Shown here: positions 1 to 6,415 of the stretch, piece by piece
How positions within the stretch are numbered: position 1 is the stretch's first letter
Layout: each line of letters begins with the position of its first letter
From: Clostridioides difficile
GTDB lineage: Bacteria > Bacillota > Clostridia > Peptostreptococcales > Peptostreptococcaceae
Direction: 5' to 3'
Length of the DNA: 64,000 nucleotides
Assembly: GCF_001299635.1 (NCBI RefSeq)
Contig: NZ_JRHN01000043.1
Coordinates: 124,001 to 188,000, forward strand
Made by a program: the position numbers and the translations under genes
Notes under the pieces: generated by a model
Told to the model about the DNA's origin: nothing
The model's database searches: none
What the model saw: only the letters and a program-made list of their open reading frames with translations

Positions 1-322
1 TTTTACTTTCTACTTGGTTTCTAACCTGCAACAACTTTAAATAAAGTTGTATATCATCATCTTTAGACTTTTCTAATAGTCCATTTATATAAATATACTC
101 TACAACTGTATTACAGAATGTACATATACTTATTAAATCTGAATCTAAGAGATTAGGTATTGTATTTATAACAAGGTTATATATATCCTTGTGTTGTTGC
201 GTATCGCCTAATATTCCGTATGTTTTCCCCTTCTGGATGCGTTCATATCCTACCAGATTCCAGAAATCAGATATTTCATCTTGCATTTTTTGCTTTTCAT
301 CTATAGTATATAAGTTACTCAA
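1..322 (-). CDS. Hypothetical mobile-element protein, C-terminus outside window
   Basis: This is an open frame of 107 visible codons that continues past the left edge of the window. The likely start is TTG at 322: a GAGGTG ribosome binding site lies about 7 bases upstream, and the start overlaps the stop of the preceding small gene by 8 bases, which suggests translational coupling. The visible part begins MSNLYTIDEKQKMQDEISDF and is mostly predicted helix with two cysteines; I see no catalytic motif. Its all-helical character and position after a small DNA-binding protein loosely recall small terminase-like or mobilisation proteins, but I do not recognise the family. The remainder of the gene would be needed to classify it. 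Confidence 0.55.
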   Translation of the reverse strand, partial: MSNLYTIDEKQKMQDEISDFWNLVGYERIQKGKTYGILGDTQQHKDIYNLVINTIPNLLDSDLISICTFCNTVVEYIYINGLLEKSKDDDIQLYLKLLQVRNQVESK

Positions 323-464
323 TTTCTAACACCTCATTTAAATATTTCTTCACTGACATTCTGATAAAATGACTAAATGTAACACCTTTCTTTTTACATC
401 CTTTTTCAATGTAATTTATTTCTTTTTGACTGAACTTTACAGTCTTTTTTATATCTTTTACCAT
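315..464 (-). CDS. Small ribbon-helix-helix DNA-binding protein (MobC/CopG-like)
   Basis: A 49-residue basic protein starting MVKDIKKTVKFSQKEINYIE. The short beta-strand-like segment VKFS followed by two helices, the second with a TFSHFIRMSVKKYL pattern, matches the ribbon-helix-helix fold of CopG/MobC-type proteins. Such proteins repress transcription or load relaxases at transfer origins; which applies here is not visible. A GTGAGG site precedes the ATG by about 9 bases. The stop codon overlaps the TTG start of the next gene, so the two are probably one transcript. The 334 bases upstream contain inverted repeats that could hold its operator. The fold assignment is by pattern only. Confidence 0.6.
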   Translation of the reverse strand: MVKDIKKTVKFSQKEINYIEKGCKKKGVTFSHFIRMSVKKYLNEVLEIE

Positions 465-947
465 TTATTTCAACCTCACTTTTCTCTGCTACAGACCTCA
501 AAATTGATTTTTTAAAATAGGTCTGACTTTTTATAAAAATTTTCAAAATTAACTTATGTTATACGAAGGGTCGGTTGAACTCGTACGTTCTCTTACTTCT
601 TCCACATTAAACCCTAGGGGGTATTAATTTTAATCCAACCACCCACAACATCTTATTTACAATCCACTTTTAACTTATTTATATTCTATCAATACAAATC
701 CTATCAATCAACCACATGAAACTATCTTAAAATCGATTCTATTAACTCTAATTGATATATTATATTTGCTATTAAAATACACACATATATTCAGATACAA
801 AAAAAGATGCAGTTATAAAACTACATCTTTCCTGCTTAATTAGATTGATATATGAGTTCTAAGAAAAATGTTTATTATCATTATTCTCATATATATTAGT
901 AATCATTTAGTAAATAAATACTAATATATTTGTAAACTATTATATCT
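465..947. other. Non-coding stretch in mobile element, with inverted repeat
   Basis: No credible gene is seen on either strand. An inverted repeat CAGACCT/AGGTCTG (493-527, 20-base loop) lies just before the small DNA-binding gene at 315-464, and a GC-richer patch (565-660) containing CCCTAGGGGG stands out from the AT-rich surroundings. These could be an operator or an origin of transfer or replication, but no known nick site was recognised. The stretch also contains the terminator at 798-830; 831-947 shows nothing notable. Confidence 0.4.
798..830 (-). terminator. Intrinsic terminator after the gene at 948-1712
   Basis: On the minus strand, AAAGATG and CATCTTT arms with an AGTT/AACT inner stem are followed by a run of T residues. 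It lies about 120 bases downstream of the stop codon at 948. Confidence 0.75.
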
Positions 948-1712
948 TTACATTAAATAATCACTTAATGTACCATTTACAATTTCATATGTGTAATGTA
1001 TTCTACTACCATCACTATGTTTAGTTCTTTCTATTAAGTCTAAATTAATCAACTTATCAATAATACGTTTTAAACTGCTCGTATCTTTATATCCAGTCCC
1101 ACTATTTATAATTCCATAATTTATTATTCCTTTTGCGTTATCCCATACACTATTTTCATTTCTTAAATAATCTCTCATAAATAAATATGTCTTTATAGTT
1201 CTACTGCTTTCTTTTGCAAGTTCATCACAAATATCTCTATCTAATATTATGTAATATCCTTCATTTTTCTTTATATTGATTTTAAAGTAAGTTTTTTCTT
1301 CTGTTAATATTCCTAATGAAATTAACTCTTTGAATCCAGTCATAAAATCTTTTTCTGATATATCATATTTACTTAGAATCTTATCTTTATTAAATGCTAA
1401 CATAAATTTAGTAATTATATTATTTTCATTATTATTAGACAATAACTTTAGTATTAGTAATACCTTATAGTCAAATGATTTATTCCTCATAAGACTTCTT
1501 CGAACAGGTAGACTAATTTTCTTATTTGTATAACTTATTCTTTCACTATATATGTAATCTCTTAAATCATGGTTGTCTATTAATTCTTCTAAATCGTCTT
1601 CAAAATAGTTATTAGATGCTATATTTAATATATCTTTTATATACTCAATATCACAATCTTGTGATTTTATTATATTTGCTATCTCTTTTATTTTTTCTTC
1701 TAATGTACTCAT
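948..1712 (-). CDS. Hypothetical winged-helix-like protein of the mobile element
   Basis: A 254-residue protein. I place the start at ATG 1712 (MSTLEEKIKEIANII) because GAGGAG lies 8 bases upstream; an in-frame extension to 1802 has no ribosome binding site. The first 60 residues are acidic and helical. Two later segments, around residues 75-145 and 170-245, each look like winged helices: the second has a helix-turn-helix-like KDTSSLKRIIDKLINLDLIE followed by a short beta hairpin. Paired winged helices occur in plasmid replication initiators and DnaD-like proteins, so a replication role is possible, but I do not recognise a family. It is separated from the upstream gene by a long inverted repeat and followed by a terminator. 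Confidence 0.6.
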   Translation of the reverse strand: MSTLEEKIKEIANIIKSQDCDIEYIKDILNIASNNYFEDDLEELIDNHDLRDYIYSERISYTNKKISLPVRRSLMRNKSFDYKVLLILKLLSNNNENNIITKFMLAFNKDKILSKYDISEKDFMTGFKELISLGILTEEKTYFKINIKKNEGYYIILDRDICDELAKESSRTIKTYLFMRDYLRNENSVWDNAKGIINYGIINSGTGYKDTSSLKRIIDKLINLDLIERTKHSDGSRIHYTYEIVNGTLSDYLM

Positions 1713-1830
1713 GTCATTATCTCCTCTTGTAAAGAACTCCTTTAGGTGTTCGCTTATTAGATGGGTTGGTGCTCTGCACCACCCATATTGTAATCGCAAC
1801 AAGTTGCTCTACACATTATTTTGTTATTTA

Positions 1831-1900
1831 TTTTCGTCCGAATAGAAGTTATATATTATATAGTGTTACATAATATATATGACTTCTATTTGGACGAAAA
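1831..1900. repeat. Long near-perfect inverted repeat between two element genes
   Basis: Two arms of about 29 bases, each starting or ending with TTTTCGTCC/GGACGAAAA, flank a loop of about 10 bases. There is one mismatch and a short length difference in the AT-rich inner part. It lies 6 bases after the stop of the gene at 1906 and 119 bases before the next start. There is no clean T run beyond the stem on either strand, so it is not a typical terminator. A protein-binding palindrome, recombination site or cruciform-forming origin element fit equally well. Confidence 0.7.
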
Positions 1901-1905
1901 CTATA

Positions 1906-2967
1906 TCATTTATATTTTGATATTATCTTATCAATTTCTTCATCTATATTCCCTTTTACTAAATGATTATTTATATTCATATACATCATCTTCTTTTTTT
2001 CAAAAGTTTCTATCAACTCATGTGGAGGTACGCCAAACACAACATTTTTTAATCGGTCTATTTCTCTATCAAATGAATTTAATATATCTAACATTAACTT
2101 TTCTGTATTGTTGTCACATTGAGTTAATATTTTATGATTTACATTTAATCGACTTACATTATAATCTAAATCATCTATTGCTCTTTTTATACTTTCTGAT
2201 GTCGCTCTTATTTCATACCCTTCATAGTAAAAATTTATGTAATCAAAACCTTCTTTATATAATAATTCCTCACACCTAATTTTAAACTTTTTCCATTTCC
2301 CCGATACATATACAAGTCCTTTATGCTTTAATCCCATATCACTTAATACTTGTCCTTCAACAGTTAATATCGCATCTGATTCTTCCTCTGTTGCTACTCT
2401 ATGCTCCATATGTGTATTGTCACATACTATAAAACATTGCCTGAAGTTAATACATCTTTGAGAATGTAGTCTTCTTAGCGACCTTTCTAATTTTTTTACT
2501 ATTTGATTATGATTTTTCATAAAAAATTGATTTAGGTAATCTAAACTAATATCTAAGTCATATGCTACATCTTGTATATGATTTCGTGTACTTTTATAGT
2601 TTTCATGTACTAATCCCATCATTATTAACGCATTATTTTTAGATAATAATATAGAATCTTTTTTTAATTCATCAAATTGATTATTTACTAACCACATTAT
2701 GATAGTTTCTAAATCTATTACTGTATCTATGTTATGACTTGTATTATTAATTCTTTTATCTTCTATAATTTCAGTCGAATTTTTTAATATCTTAATTACT
2801 TTTATATATCCTTTTTTACTTCCTTTTTCAGTAACTAAGTATGCATTTATATTTTCTATTTGTTTCTTTCTCTGATTTCCACCTTTTGCAAGTTCATTTC
2901 CAAATATTTTTTCATGTATTTCACTTGTTTTATATTCTTCGCCTTCAATGATGTTATAACTACTCAT
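1906..2967 (-). CDS. Hypothetical 353-residue protein of the mobile element
   Basis: A 353-residue protein with a strong AGGAGG site before ATG 2967, starting 3 bases after the small repressor-like gene at 2970-3119. It begins MSSYNIIEGEEYKTSEIHEK. Residues 12-60 contain a helix-turn-helix-like stretch followed by basic beta-rich sequence, with KGYIKVIKILK near residue 55. The middle has a cysteine/histidine-containing patch (RCINFRQCFIVCDNTHMEHR), and the C-terminal 80 residues look coiled-coil. I do not recognise the family. Size, basic N-terminus and coupling to a small ribbon-helix-helix gene would suit a replication or partition protein of a plasmid-like element, but that is inference. 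Confidence 0.6.
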   Translation of the reverse strand: MSSYNIIEGEEYKTSEIHEKIFGNELAKGGNQRKKQIENINAYLVTEKGSKKGYIKVIKILKNSTEIIEDKRINNTSHNIDTVIDLETIIMWLVNNQFDELKKDSILLSKNNALIMMGLVHENYKSTRNHIQDVAYDLDISLDYLNQFFMKNHNQIVKKLERSLRRLHSQRCINFRQCFIVCDNTHMEHRVATEEESDAILTVEGQVLSDMGLKHKGLVYVSGKWKKFKIRCEELLYKEGFDYINFYYEGYEIRATSESIKRAIDDLDYNVSRLNVNHKILTQCDNNTEKLMLDILNSFDREIDRLKNVVFGVPPHELIETFEKKKMMYMNINNHLVKGNIDEEIDKIISKYK

Positions 2968-2969
2968 GA

Positions 2970-3119
2970 CTATAGAACCTCCTTTTGACTATCTAGGAAC
3001 TGCTCTACCAGTTTTTGCATTAAGTATGATACTTTCCTATCATCTTCATTTGCAATCTTTTCTAGTTGTTCTTTTTGCTCTGTTGTAACTCTAAATGTTA
3101 CTGTTGTATTTTTTATCAT
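2970..3119 (-). CDS. Small ribbon-helix-helix protein
   Basis: A 49-residue protein starting MIKNTTVTFRVTTEQKEQLE at ATG 3119, preceded by AAAAGGAG with a good spacing; an in-frame extension to 3155 lacks such a site. The TVTFRVT strand followed by EQKEQLEKIANEDDRKVSYLMQKLVEQFL is a clear ribbon-helix-helix pattern, as in CopG and Arc-type repressors. It is followed after 2 bases by the 353-residue gene, so it probably autoregulates a two-gene operon, as CopG does with RepB on plasmids. The operator is expected upstream at 3120-3260, where the sequence is very AT rich and I see no obvious palindrome. Confidence 0.75.
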   Translation of the reverse strand: MIKNTTVTFRVTTEQKEQLEKIANEDDRKVSYLMQKLVEQFLDSQKEVL

Positions 3120-3261
3120 GTTTATACTCCTTTTATGTGTACTTCGTGTACTCACTATTTAAATTTTTTATCAGGCTCATGCCTTATAATACACATAACG
3201 TACAAATTTTTATGAAAGTAAAATAAAATTAAAAATTTATATAAAACTGTATCATTTAAGC

Positions 3262-3293
3262 AAAAAAATAAAGAGTAGATTATCTATCTACTC
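3262..3293 (-). terminator. Intrinsic terminator after the gene at 3306-3788
   Basis: The minus strand shows GAGTAGAT/ATCTACTC arms around a short loop, followed by TTTATTTTTTT. It lies 13 bases beyond the stop codon of the gene it ends. Confidence 0.85.
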
Positions 3294-3305
3294 CATCAAT
3301 ATATT

Positions 3306-3788
3306 TTATAATGCATTCTTATAGTCATTTATTATATCTATTATATCTTGTTTAAGCTTTAATCCTGTTTTATATTCTGGATTAAGTTCTAATAATTCTA
3401 TTCTATACCTCATATTAATTAATCCATTATCTTCTACATATTCCTCACCATTTTCATCTTCATGCAAATCTGTATCCTCTTCCCAGTCGACTCTACAAAG
3501 TATTTCACCTCCTAATTTATGTTTTAACCTAGCGAATAAATTATTTGCAACATTGTAGTTATGGTTTAATACAAAGAAATCTACATAGTTTATTGGACAA
3601 TGATTATGTTTTTCTTCTGGTATCATGTGACCTTGACAGCAATTCATTGTTACTAAGTCCTCTATAGAATTTATAGCATTACATAAGTCTAACATGTGTT
3701 TATCTATCAAATTATCTTTTTCTGCTTTTTTTAGTAACCATTCTTTGTATTCTTTATCAAACAATACTACATTCTTTAAGTTCATCAT
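3306..3788 (-). CDS. Hypothetical phage/plasmid-type protein with Cys-His cluster
   Basis: A 160-residue acidic protein starting MMNLKNVVLFDKEYKEWL, with AGAAGGAG upstream of ATG 3788. The central motif NCCQGH (about residues 49-54), followed by HNHCP and YVDFFV, resembles the SCQGH...YVSF pattern seen in uncharacterised phage and plasmid proteins and could bind a metal. The C-terminal half is rich in Asp and Glu and ends with an amphipathic helix. It stands alone between its own promoter (3826-3854) and terminator (3262-3293), so it is a single-gene unit. No function can be given from the sequence. Confidence 0.65.
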   Translation of the reverse strand: MMNLKNVVLFDKEYKEWLLKKAEKDNLIDKHMLDLCNAINSIEDLVTMNCCQGHMIPEEKHNHCPINYVDFFVLNHNYNVANNLFARLKHKLGGEILCRVDWEEDTDLHEDENGEEYVEDNGLINMRYRIELLELNPEYKTGLKLKQDIIDIINDYKNAL

Positions 3789-3809
3789 AATATTTTTTCT
3801 CCTTCTTGT

Positions 3810-3833
3810 GGTAATTTATGTTTATAAATTACC
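3810..3833. promoter_or_regulatory. Perfect palindrome over the -10 region
   Basis: GGTAATTTAT and ATAAATTACC form a perfect 10-base dyad with a 4-base centre. It overlaps the -10 box and expected start of transcription of the gene at 3306-3788. It could be a repressor operator or a 5'-UTR hairpin. Confidence 0.5.
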
Positions 3834-3854
3834 ATATGAAAACTCATATGTCAA
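3826..3854 (-). promoter_or_regulatory. SigA-type promoter of the gene at 3306-3788
   Basis: On the minus strand TTGACA (3849-3854) is followed after 17 bases by TAATTT (3826-3831), with an extended TG just before the -10 box. Confidence 0.65.
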
Positions 3855-4192
3855 TACTTTCAATCCCAGTGTTTCCAACACTTTCAGTGTGCTCACAAAT
3901 AGGCGTACAATCGTCCTCACAAATATTATAATTCGGTATTTTTGCATAGATTCAAAAAAGAAGGTAGCAACCCCACACATTGAGTTACTACCTTCTTTTT
4001 TAACTTCCGTTTGTTCAACAACACACATTCAAAAAAATGAACACAATCGCATATTGAGGTAAGGTCGTACATCCTTACAACAAGTTCCATTTTTAAGTTT
4101 AGAAAACAAGGTCACACTTCCTTGTTCTCTTTTATATATTATGGTTTTACACACTTTCGAAGTAAGATTACTTCTTGTATTTATTATATAAC
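3855..4192. other. Non-coding structured stretch in mobile element
   Basis: No credible gene. It holds an AGTGTT/AACACT hairpin near 3872-3886, the strong hairpin at 3960-3995, a GTAAGG/CCTTAC hairpin at 4059-4078 and an AACAAGG/CCTTGTT hairpin at 4105-4126 with T-rich tails on both sides. Small frames on both strands read straight through these structures and have no ribosome binding sites. A plus-strand small RNA ending at one of the hairpins is possible. Confidence 0.45.
3954..4001. terminator. Bidirectional intrinsic terminator
   Basis: GAAGGTAG/CTACCTTC arms at 3960-3967 and 3988-3995 are flanked by A6 on the left and T6 on the right, so the structure can end transcripts on either strand. 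It is upstream of, and not needed by, the gene at 3306-3788; on the minus strand it would end the operon coming from 4193. Confidence 0.75.
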
Positions 4193-4696
4193 TTATCTGT
4201 TATTTTTACAATTATTTACATTTATAATTTCTTTATATTCATATATAAATCTTCTATCAAATTTATTAACTACTTTAGGTCTGCAAGATATATTAACAAC
4301 TTGTGTACCAGATACTTTTAAATCATGTTTAATTTGGTTAAATCTCCATTTGGATATATTTAGTATTTCTATTACTTCATACTTAAAACAATCTAATCTA
4401 ATTTGATGCTCCTTGTGTATCTCTAGTATCCTTTCTGGAGGTTGCTCTGGTAGATATTTTTTTAATAACGCCTTTACTTCCTTTTCTTTTAAGTCTGTAT
4501 ACTTTTTTATTCCTATTTTACCTAATATCTTTTTACATTCATTTATTGTAATTCTATCTATTAATCTTATCGTATCTCTAATTATTAATCTATCTATTTC
4601 ATTTGTTTTGTATGGTGTATAATCTATTTCAAATACATCTAAGAAAATACTATATAATCTATTATCATCCTTATTATTCATGTATTTTATTTTCAT
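4193..4696 (-). CDS. Hypothetical HTH-like element protein
   Basis: A 167-residue protein beginning MKIKYMNNKDDNRLYSIFLD at ATG 4696, overlapping the end of the preceding mini-gene by 23 bases; ATG 4681 is an alternative start. The middle is highly charged and helical. Residues from about 100 to 150 contain DCFKYEVIEILNISKWRFNQIK, which could be a helix-turn-helix reading DNA (a YxxxEILNISxWRxNQI pattern), followed by a basic stretch. It is the last gene of a minus-strand run starting at 5371. I do not recognise the family. Confidence 0.6.
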   Translation of the reverse strand: MKIKYMNNKDDNRLYSIFLDVFEIDYTPYKTNEIDRLIIRDTIRLIDRITINECKKILGKIGIKKYTDLKEKEVKALLKKYLPEQPPERILEIHKEHQIRLDCFKYEVIEILNISKWRFNQIKHDLKVSGTQVVNISCRPKVVNKFDRRFIYEYKEIINVNNCKNNR

Positions 4697-4805
4697 TATT
4701 TTTCTTTAAATCTTCTTTTTCTAATTCTTTTATTATATCTATAAATATATCGCATAATCTATCTTTATCGACCTTATTTATTCCATAGATGATATTAACC
4801 TTCAT
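4674..4805 (-). CDS. Mini-protein, paralogue of the gene at 4795-4965
   Basis: A 43-residue frame starting MKVNIIYGINKVDKDRLCDI at ATG 4805. The start overlaps the stop of the preceding gene, and the end overlaps the next gene by 23 bases, a tightly packed coupled arrangement. Its pattern (VNIIY, then KVDKDRLCDIFIDIIKELE) aligns closely with VIIRY and KVDKDKLYDIFANIIKRLE in the upstream neighbour, so the two arose by tandem duplication. The conservation supports a real gene despite its size. Function unknown. Confidence 0.6.
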   Translation of the reverse strand: MKVNIIYGINKVDKDRLCDIFIDIIKELEKEDLKKNNENKIHE

Positions 4806-4965
4806 ATTTTCTATCTTCAATTTTTTCACATGTTACACCTTCTTTCTTCTCTAGTTCTAATCTTTTTATTATATTAGCAAATATATCGTATAGTTTATCT
4901 TTATCAACTTTTCTATCAGTATATCTAATAATTACATTCATATCTTCTATCTTGAACTTTTTCAT
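4795..4965 (-). CDS. Small hypothetical protein, tandem paralogue
   Basis: A 56-residue protein starting MKKFKIEDMNVIIRYTDRKV. ATG 4965 is preceded by AGAGGTG, which sits inside the end of the gene at 4976-5371, so the two are coupled. The strand VIIRY followed by a charged helix KVDKDKLYDIFANIIKRLE is shared with the 43-residue neighbour. The tail is charged and probably disordered. No known family was recognised; the shape would suit a small accessory or regulatory protein. Confidence 0.65.
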   Translation of the reverse strand: MKKFKIEDMNVIIRYTDRKVDKDKLYDIFANIIKRLELEKKEGVTCEKIEDRKYEG

Positions 4966-4975
4966 TTGTACACCT

Positions 4976-5371
4976 CTAATATACATATCTACTTATTGCA
5001 AACTTTATTGCATCTTCTATTTTGATTCCCTTTTCTCTACATCTAATTTCTAAATCTTCATACATTTCATTTGATATTCTAAATCCTTCTATGTGCTTTG
5101 TAGTTTGTTTTATTATCTTCTTATTCTCTATTTGGTGTTTTGCTTGTTCCTTAACCTTAGCAACATTTACTTCTTTTAAATACTTATTTGCATCTTCTAA
5201 GTTAGCAAATGATTTATAAACTGAATTGTACCCATGTACCAGTTCTTTGCATTCTGTCCATGTTCTAACTATTAAGTTTTCTACTCCCCTGCCTTCTTTG
5301 ATAGCATAGTATTTCTTTTCTCTATTTTTCTTCTTAGTTATATTTTTGTTTATAGCTTTTTTCTTTGTCAT
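4976..5371 (-). CDS. RNase H1-type hybrid-binding domain protein with helix-helix tail
   Basis: A 131-residue very basic protein; ATG 5371 follows AAGGAG at good spacing. Residues 1-20 are Lys rich. Residues about 21-68 (YYAIKEGRGVENLIVRTWTE, then CKELVHGYNSVYKSFANLED and a helix) match the viroplasmin/RNase HI N-terminal domain, including the Trp-x-x-Cys, H-G and Y-K-S-F positions. That domain binds RNA:DNA hybrids and double-stranded RNA. In RNase H1 it is followed by a catalytic domain; here none exists. Instead the C-terminal 45 residues (FRISNEMYEDLEIRCREKGI) look like a ribbon-helix-helix dimerisation or DNA-binding unit. It opens the minus-strand gene run nearest the element end and adjoins the structured non-coding region. 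A role in replication priming, R-loop control or RNA binding is inference. Confidence 0.75.
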   Translation of the reverse strand: MTKKKAINKNITKKKNREKKYYAIKEGRGVENLIVRTWTECKELVHGYNSVYKSFANLEDANKYLKEVNVAKVKEQAKHQIENKKIIKQTTKHIEGFRISNEMYEDLEIRCREKGIKIEDAIKFAISRYVY

Positions 5372-5429
5372 TTCTTTATCTCCTTATATCTATCAAGTTT
5401 GTTATTTTATATAGTAACGTTCAAATGTT

Positions 5430-6150
5430 TCACTTAACATATCACCTTAGATTCGAGTTATTTACAGAACTATCCTATCAATTCAGTAAAAATGGGTACA
5501 ATGACACAATTTATAAAATTAATAGAAAAATTCTGTAGTTAACACGAATCTAAGTTGATATAATGTATCACCCCATCATCTCGGCAGGTATACGACCCTG
5601 CAACGACCACAACCATCAAACCGTTAAGTATTCCAACTTAACTATGCATCAAAACAAGTTTAAATAACCATTATACCAACTTGTCCACCTTTTCAAGTGC
5701 TTTGCATATTCCTTAAATTATCGGTTATTATCCTCTAATCCGTTCCTCTTTGTCATATTGATATTAAATATCAACTTAGACTAAACATCCTTTAGAAAGT
5801 TGCATGTAGGGACTGACGTCACATATTACAAGATAGCATTGTAATATGACCGAGTGTACTTTGTGCTTGGGCTACACTTCACCTCTCATTTTTATCCTGG
5901 TATGGCATCCAGTTTCGGTAACTTTTTTATCATAAAAAATATCTACTATAATCCTAATTATCGAGGATAGGTTTAATCCACACATTGTATAAAGCCGTTT
6001 AACTATGTTATAAGCTAACAATAATTATCAAGGTTGTTGTAAATCCTTCCATTGCATCAAGTCCATTAGCTATGGTCTATGGACTGTATATCAAATATTT
6101 GTTATAATAAAAATACCCATTATTAAGTTAATACCTAATAATGGGTAATC
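5430..6150 (-). ncRNA. Candidate large structured RNA or recombination region
   Basis: About 720 bases without a credible gene. Paired segments include 5439-5455 with 5545-5561 (17 bases, one mismatch) enclosing 5462-5468/5531-5537, and hairpins at 5584-5601, 5623-5642, 5758-5774 (perfect), 5818-5850 and 5853-5878. GTCCAT/ATGGAC arms lie at 6061-6084 and a perfect 12-base stem at 6114-6147. GC content is higher than in the flanking intergenic DNA. The minus strand is the purine-rich one, as expected of a folded RNA. Large phage-associated RNAs such as ROOL or GOLLD are candidates by size and context only. An alternative is a replication or attachment region. Strand and ends are guesses. Confidence 0.4.
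6114..6147. repeat. Perfect 12-base stem at the element end
   Basis: TACCCATTATTA and its exact complement flank a 10-base loop. On the minus strand it is followed by TTTTTATTATAA, giving a terminator form that would stop transcripts entering the element from the coat gene side. It ends within about 10 bases of the inferred junction with the coat gene, so it may also be part of the attachment site. Confidence 0.65.
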
Positions 6151-6157
6151 GTTATAA

Positions 6158-6415
6158 TTAGCAGATTCAAATGGTGTTCCATTTGATGTAAGACCTATAG
6201 CCGTTATGTCAAATCCTGTAACTGATTTACATGAAAATATGGCTGCTGAACAAAAAGCACTTGCGACTTATTATCAACTTATAAATCTAACAGATGATGT
6301 TGATGTTATAGATGTACTAAAATTCTTAGGTCAAAGAGAAATAATTCACTATCAAAGATTTGGTGAAGCTTTAATGGATGCTTACGACTTAGAAGAAAAC
6401 CAAAAAATGTTCTAA
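6158..6415 (+). pseudogene. cotD: 3' remnant of manganese-catalase-type spore coat protein CotD
   Basis: Eighty-five in-frame codons after a TAA at 6155-6157 read LADSNGVPFDVRPIAV and then MSNPVTDLHENMAAEQKALA to the stop. This is the C-terminal third of the CotJC/manganese catalase family: the HENMAAE glutamate and the REIIHYQRF histidine/glutamate are the family's late metal ligands. The N-terminal half with the other ligands is absent. An ATG at 6206 has no ribosome binding site, and the family pattern continues upstream of it to about 6158, so the similarity, not that ATG, defines the edge. In C. difficile the gene before the SH3/NlpC-P60 hydrolase is, as I remember it, cotD (CD2401). The gene has therefore been split by the element to its left. 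It is inactive unless the element excises. Confidence 0.85.

Follow-up and report, generated by a model that had tools for sequence, protein, structure and literature searches.

The cotD gene in the genome analysed here is interrupted at codon 108 by an element of 14,599 bp. This interruption is probably a skin-type intervening element, that is, a reduced and phage-derived sequence integrated by a large serine recombinase (LSR) at the sequence CAGAT and excised late in the mother cell. The window, the whole 64,000-nucleotide stretch of DNA that was analysed (C37:124001-188000, with base 1 at C37:124001; genome G000, 4.28 Mb), holds only the right 6.2 kb of the element (window 1..6163), which extends from C37:115565 to C37:130163. 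A skin-like reading of the cotD interruption had been put forward in an earlier note on this DNA. It is supported, and the analogy with skin gains strength from four other genomes in which the insertion recurs at this codon and from a sigma-K-type promoter sequence. As judged from the sequence, the insertion is precise, the LSR lies inside it, both gene halves are open, recombination genes are present, the insertion is recurrent and a sigma-K-type sequence precedes the recombination operon. The LSR presumably made the insertion and is presumably active, and excision would take place in the mother cell with the timing of sigma-K.

A search for manganese catalases in the window genome revealed two uninterrupted genes and two partial ones. 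Both partial matches belong to one contig and to its plus strand, at C37:115244-115531 (model positions 1-97) and C37:130140-130388 (model positions 114-196; window 6140-6388). The 3′ frame in the window matched PF05067 with an E value of 1e-16 over model positions 114-196. The C-terminal CotD/CotJC manganese-catalase frame ends at window 6415, as the earlier note had it; its start at 6158 and its 85 residues are those of the open frame, which is 6 bases longer than the cotD sequence. From the PF05067 match and the comparison of junctions, the 3′ part of cotD occupies window 6164..6415 on the plus strand (codons 108-190, 83 codons, and the stop), and family-like sequence begins at window 6164 with codon 108 (GAT). 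Leftwards from window 6163 to the window edge the DNA has no likeness to cotD, and the minus strand carries its larger ORFs, in agreement with the unrelated element of opposite gene direction that had been described. The 5′ fragment anticipated at the far end of the element was found at C37:115244-115573, on the same contig and strand; codons 1-107 (C37:115244-115564, plus strand) lie outside the element and left of the window. The 5′ part stands 14.6 kb upstream of the 3′ part, and the two are collinear, with no stop or frameshift between them. Two small genes at C37:114740-115215, left of the element, are presumably cotJA/cotJB-like, judged by their position. For a neighbouring gene, the nearest solved structure was 7cfl, which we take to be C. 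difficile Cwl0971.

In all seven congeners cotD is one unbroken frame of 192 aa, so that among the eight genomes of the genus it is split only in the window genome. The site at codon 108 was CCAACAGATTCAAATGGTG in the four congeners that were read base by base, namely those with the gene on the plus strand. In the window genome, the left junction consists of CCAACAGAT followed by element DNA and the right junction of element DNA followed by CAGATTCAAATGGTG. A short duplicated core had been suspected within ATTAGCAGAT; comparison of the junctions with intact relatives identified it as the 5-bp sequence CAGAT, present at C37:115563-115567 on the left and at window 6162..6166 (plus strand) on the right. 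Removal of the element at CAGAT would yield GIYPTDSNGVPFDV, the sequence of the congeners, in frame. As in elements of the skin type, collinear halves of a sporulation gene form the flanks, a short direct repeat marks the ends and the element has a recombinase of its own.

The recombinase, a site-specific enzyme of the kind looked for in the element, is encoded at the left end and is transcribed towards cotD (480 aa, C37:115640-117082, minus strand). It has resolvase N-terminal and Recombinase domains (PF00239, 2.5e-26; PF07508, 2.4e-14), belongs to phrog_95, and gave a match to the A118 integrase (4kis, E 4.6e-5). A small ORF at C37:117051-117218 (minus strand) overlaps the start of the LSR gene by 32 nt, and a sigma-K-type promoter sequence is located upstream of it at about C37:117256-117283 (minus strand). 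Genes for a portal protein (C37:119261-120457) and a major capsid protein (C37:120527-121633) follow, both on the minus strand. Within the window, also on the minus strand, are genes for a 353-aa protein (1906..2967), which has no Pfam match at 0.01 and shares 25% identity over 263 aa with one from the R. timonensis (G049) element; an Arc-like repressor of 61 aa (2970..3155; phrog_3180); a 167-aa protein near the right end (4193..4696), with counterparts in all five codon-108 elements (65-72% identical); small proteins of 51 aa (4674..4829) and 63 aa (4795..4986); and a 131-aa protein with a ribonuclease H1 N-terminal domain (4976..5371; PF01693). The 63-aa protein is a paralogue of the LSR-overlapping ORF and a member of the directionality-factor candidate family, and the 51-aa protein is the second small-protein paralogue. 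The right end is non-coding (5372..6114) and is followed by a hairpin read from the sequence, ACCCATTATTA...TAATAATGGGT (6115..6146), and by the right half of the deduced attP (6138..6163, plus strand). Neither terminase nor tail protein was recognised among the ten element proteins given to each library (Pfam and phrog), and the element looks like a reduced prophage. The 167-aa protein could be an excision co-factor or regulator. As a directionality factor it was set aside; its AlphaFold model, built from five sequences, had a mean pLDDT of 45.

The LSR was detected at E≤1e-30 in 5 of 71 genomes of the family, and at E≤1e-60 in the same five among 393 genomes drawn from the order. In each of them, i.e. 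the window genome, G046, G050, G011 and G049, a copy lies inside cotD at codon 108. The carriers represent four genera, G046 and G049 being of one genus. All five junctions cross at GA (window 6164-6165), and the reading frame would be restored in each. The elements, as reckoned from coordinates, measure about 32.5 kb in G046, about 32.6 kb in G050 and 13.3 kb in G049; in G011 the element and the cotD halves are spread over two contigs. The LSRs of G046 and G049 are 51% identical while their CotD halves are 87 and 91% identical, which indicates that codon 108 was entered at least twice. The deduced attP has an imperfect dyad around GA, which was scored without a shuffle control and matches at 19 of 26 positions in the window genome, 15 in G046, 13 in G050, 23 in G011 and 20 in G049; attB dyads score 8-13 of 26, a range that includes the attP value of G050.

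Apart from the LSR, only the LSR-overlapping small protein (50-63 aa across the five elements) and the right-end protein (159-173 aa) of the window element were present in all four others (blastp, E≤1e-4). Its portal protein matches G046 and G050 only, and two of its proteins match G049 only. Among nine proteins scanned, terminase, portal, capsid and tape measure were recognised for the G050 element, and terminase and tape measure for the G046 element; both look like full prophages by their gene content. No virus with the window-element LSR was confirmed in viral_contigs by sequence or alignment. Among 50,697 phage records, 313 matched this LSR, all with less than 60% identity and none covering 80%.

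In C. difficile, the promoters of sigma-E and of sigma-K have the -10 element in common and are told apart by the -35 (ATA or AC), according to passages of PMC3789822. The window element has a single AC-N16/17-CATANNNTA on its two strands, upstream of the small ORF (1 observed, 2.25 expected). In the other elements this motif is found elsewhere too, at about the chance rate; overall, with the window element included, it is not enriched. The distance from its start to the small ORF is 59-65 nt in the window genome, G046, G049 and G050, and 46 nt for a weaker, imperfect form in G011. When positions were reckoned from the LSR start, AC-N17-CATANNNTA was present at -191 to -201 in five of the six members of the LSR clade (the sixth is described below). 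Within 300 nt of the LSR start it was seen in none of seven complete background LSRs (12 loci were tried, five of which had no complete ORF, and some of the seven are close relatives of each other) and in none of three codon-65 LSRs; since the clade members are related too, these counts are not independent. The 72-aa gene of skin in the window genome has ATA-N17-CATATTTTA upstream instead, which fits the sigma-E control of C. difficile CD1234 reported in the passages available.

Small ORFs of the directionality-factor candidate family are kept in all five codon-108 elements. By analogy with the 64-aa Skr, whose gene overlaps spoIVCA, we propose that the small ORF codes for a recombination directionality factor. 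Homology of the small ORF to CD1234-like proteins and to the codon-65 small proteins was considered and rejected (hhalign 'Prob' 0.1 and 0.2, respectively, on a percent scale).

The sixth member of the LSR clade (47% identical, G050:C76) sits in a feoB gene. All six clade copies found at E≤1e-60 in the 393 genomes of the order (at least 47% identity) split either cotD or feoB. In feoB, a second candidate target (L051, L136; G050:C76:40837-59372), the element of about 17 kb carries, besides this LSR, a small ORF that gave a weak match to the small-ORF family (E 0.004) and is preceded by a sigma-K-type promoter sequence. The 3′ part of feoB is found about 17 kb further on, where some 18 codons of it can be read before the contig ends. 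Orthologues of this feoB are uninterrupted, with 697-708 aa, in G000, G001, G007, G011, G012 and G052. A published account, as far as its excerpt goes, places the C. difficile feoA-feoB operon (CD1518-CD1517) in the sigma-K regulon with a ratio of 0.05, and the interrupted gene is presumably the orthologue of CD1517. In line with this, a sigma-K-type motif is located 76-79 nt before the feoA start in G001, G007, G050 and G011, and G000 has it in that place too; it is absent in G052 and, in the two genomes in which the other feoB operon was checked, from the front of that operon as well. The feoB-site LSR had been chosen as a negative control for the promoter motif, but the motif is present there and the presumed counterpart of its feoB belongs to the sigma-K regulon.

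The order-wide search for CotD covered 393 genomes, at least 153 of which have a CotD match. Among the matches listed, both halves of a split gene were seen in four more genomes, at codon 65 in G072, G156 and G172 and near codon 134 in G228. In G015, which is of the same family as the window genome, cotD is likewise split at codon 65. Together with the five at codon 108, at least 10 splits were seen among the 153 CotD-match genomes listed. Only the 3′ part was found in G141, and the partial match in G030 runs into a contig end. The codon-65 LSRs form one group that is distantly related to the skin LSR; those of G072, G156 and G172 are 39-40% identical to the G015 LSR, which in turn is 35% identical to the skin LSR. 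The G228 LSR is 22% identical to that of G015. The G156 element is only about 3.2 kb long and consists of the LSR, a 58-aa ORF with relatives in G072 and G172, and a two-gene cassette, and both halves of its cotD are open. The cassette is presumably an MNT/HEPN pair. An 18-bp direct repeat was observed at the junctions of this element (L117:15491-19334), and further codon-65 elements (L120; L086/L087; L115/L116/L123) measure about 7.2, 36 and 39.5 kb. The G228 element (L122:449-7041), of about 6 kb, shares GCAGCAGA at its junctions and its LSR is of a third kind; the remaining ORFs look, in our estimation, like a transporter and a regulator.

To assess selection, the two halves of cotD were compared separately by the Nei-Gojobori method. 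Between G156 and G072, both interrupted at codon 65 by elements of another LSR group, w was 0.0175 for the 5′ half (dS 1.20) and 0.0165 for the 3′ half (dS 1.06); the halves are under purifying selection in these genomes. As their LSRs are 58% identical, the two need not share one old insertion. When the window genome was compared with five congeners, 0-3 replacements and 8-17 silent changes were counted in the 5′ half, and 4-6 replacements and 7-11 silent changes in the 3′ half. The w of the 3′ half was 0.10-0.18 with the window genome as against 0.036-0.053 in three intact pairs, and this mild excess of replacements counts against strong constraint. In addition, the window genome has an intact cotD paralogue (C15, 71%), and the spore yield of C. 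difficile does not change when cotD is disrupted, according to part of a review; loss of cotD could thus be tolerated. No intact paralogue was found at E≤1e-8 in G046, G050 or G015, where the two halves were the only matches. The CD2399-cotJB2-cotD operon of C. difficile is sigK-dependent, with a cotD ratio of 0.01 in the sigK mutant, in the available portion of PMC3789822. By orthology, the target gene of the element would be expressed in the mother cell.

If only the mother cell requires cotD, the element can be maintained in the germ line provided that the mother cell removes it. In the mechanism that we propose, the sigma-K-type promoter would, once sigma-K is active, transcribe the small ORF together with the overlapping LSR gene, and the two products would excise the element as a circle. 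cotD would be rejoined in frame and then expressed as a member of the sigma-K regulon, and the chromosome of the forespore would retain the element. In the window genome sigK itself is split by a separate element (partial matches C24:181139-181513 and C24:172783-173049; L109, G000:C24:171500-183000), which carries a 509-aa LSR and a conserved 72-aa protein, a size given for CD1234. Excision would therefore be serial, skin first and the cotD element second. Among the seven congeners, sigK is split in G003, G004 and G006, unbroken in G001, G002 and G007, and represented by two partial matches on two contigs in G005.

The cotD element is not C. difficile skin itself, as it neither lies in sigK nor carries orthologues of CD1231 and CD1234. 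Both contain an LSR (CD1231 in skin, with the directionality factor CD1234) and interrupt a mother-cell sporulation gene. They differ in the target gene, in the LSR (about 24% identical over 227 aa), in the 72-aa protein of skin, which has no homologue in the cotD element at E≤1e-3, and in the promoter sequence, which is of the sigma-K type in the cotD element and of the sigma-E type in skin. As described in parts of PMC6957869, B. subtilis skin (skr-spoIVCA) likewise has a small directionality-factor ORF upstream of and overlapping the LSR gene and a mother-cell promoter; the overlap is 101 nt with the 64-aa Skr, compared with 32 nt here. Its target is sigK and its control is by sigma-E and SpoIIID, and the likeness to Skr that is drawn here for the small ORF is one of gene layout. 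SP-beta in spsM is a prophage in a spore-surface gene, a state that the larger cotD prophages of G046 and G050 resemble; the window element, of 14.6 kb, is much smaller than the 131-134 kb of SP-beta-type elements (PMC6957869, in part). The elements yin in yabG of C. botulinum and gin in gerE of B. cereus are likewise found in late mother-cell genes, but in other ones. In the accessible sections of PMC10747680, yin codes for a 53-aa protein, a putative directionality factor, under a putative SigK promoter, and is described as unique to one strain, whereas the cotD site has been entered repeatedly. The split sporulation genes named in the portions seen of PMC10747680 and PMC6957869 are sigK, spoVFB, spoVR, spsM, gerE, kamA and yabG. 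A split cotD was not found in the open-licence full-text literature, as far as the available parts of its articles go (PMC3789822, PMC9542656, PMC10747680, PMC11222575, PMC4191935, PMC6957869 and PMC5025042 included), and may be reported elsewhere. Nor did a split feoB turn up in this literature, which was searched for a cotD case. The portion of PMC11222575 at hand mentions CotD only as the paralogue of a gene beside phi027.

Programmed excision has to be weighed against an ordinary prophage remnant, in which cotD served as attB, the phage decayed and a dispensable gene became permanently inactive. Portal and capsid being the only structural genes recognised among the proteins scanned, the intact paralogue and the slight replacement excess in the 3′ half are in keeping with such a remnant. 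So is the assembly, in which neither a rejoined cotD nor a circle junction was present with up to 3 mismatches and only the integrated form was seen, although absence of the excised form is expected if growing cells were sequenced. The LSR frame, the att sites, the promoter sequence and both halves of cotD are nevertheless intact, elements recur at codon 108, three carriers of a split cotD have no intact paralogue at E≤1e-8, and five of six clade members have the sigma-K-type sequence. The G156 element at codon 65 has been reduced to 3.2 kb, in which the LSR, a small ORF and the cassette of two genes are left, and yet the gene halves are open. Permanent inactivation by a remnant is on these grounds unlikely.

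Excision of the phage or stress type in vegetative cells, with restoration of the gene in sporulation as an incidental outcome, would suit the G050 and G046 elements, which look like full prophages, and SP-beta is reported in part of PMC6957869 to respond to stress as well as to sporulation. For the window element this is very improbable, as no terminase or tail gene was recognised among its proteins scanned and its sole sigma-K-type motif precedes the LSR operon. An assembly artefact or mis-join can be given hardly any weight: the genome is a draft of 66 contigs, but both junctions lie within one contig of 210 kb and match the relatives to the base, and the same arrangement is found in four other assemblies (with the halves on two contigs in G011).

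Beyond the skin-type element in cotD, we see about an even chance of a more general arrangement, in which one LSR clade of the family has become specialised in splitting genes of the sigma-K regulon (cotD and feoB), with its own LSR and directionality factor driven from a sigma-K promoter. In the window genome, excision of skin would then provide sigma-K, which would bring about both excision of the cotD element and transcription of the rejoined gene, and cotD/cotJC would be a recurrent target, at three codons and for three kinds of LSR. Only a handful of genes split by mobile elements in sporulation have been reported, to judge from the portions of PMC10747680 and PMC6957869 available. Many species have a split cotD, which arose independently more than once, and the elements range from prophages of about 32 kb to a remnant of 3.2 kb; the series offers comparative material on how phages become developmental elements. 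Control of the sigma-K type predicts serial DNA rearrangement within a single cell type. In the carriers, annotation would mark CotD and FeoB as broken, though they may function during sporulation.

The right ends of the elements are also conserved outside the genes. The last 60 bp or so before the junction and the first 20 bp or so of the cotD part could be aligned between the window element and each of the other four. Those four share, across genera, a non-coding block of about 600 bp with 78-88% identity (L050:14514-15084, L084, L083, L085; no Rfam match at the gathering threshold), of which no more than the final 60 bp or so recur in the window element. The feoB element, too, has a stretch at its end that looks similar to this block. 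In the window element, an inverted repeat of about 125 bp, imperfect with 74% of positions matching, lies at window 5439-5561 within the non-coding right end. A search of eight loci with Rfam at gathering thresholds, which covered this right end, detected only two tRNAs, both in other elements; tRNA genes are present within both of the cotD prophages of about 32 kb, at L083:10126-10197 and L084:8679-8751.
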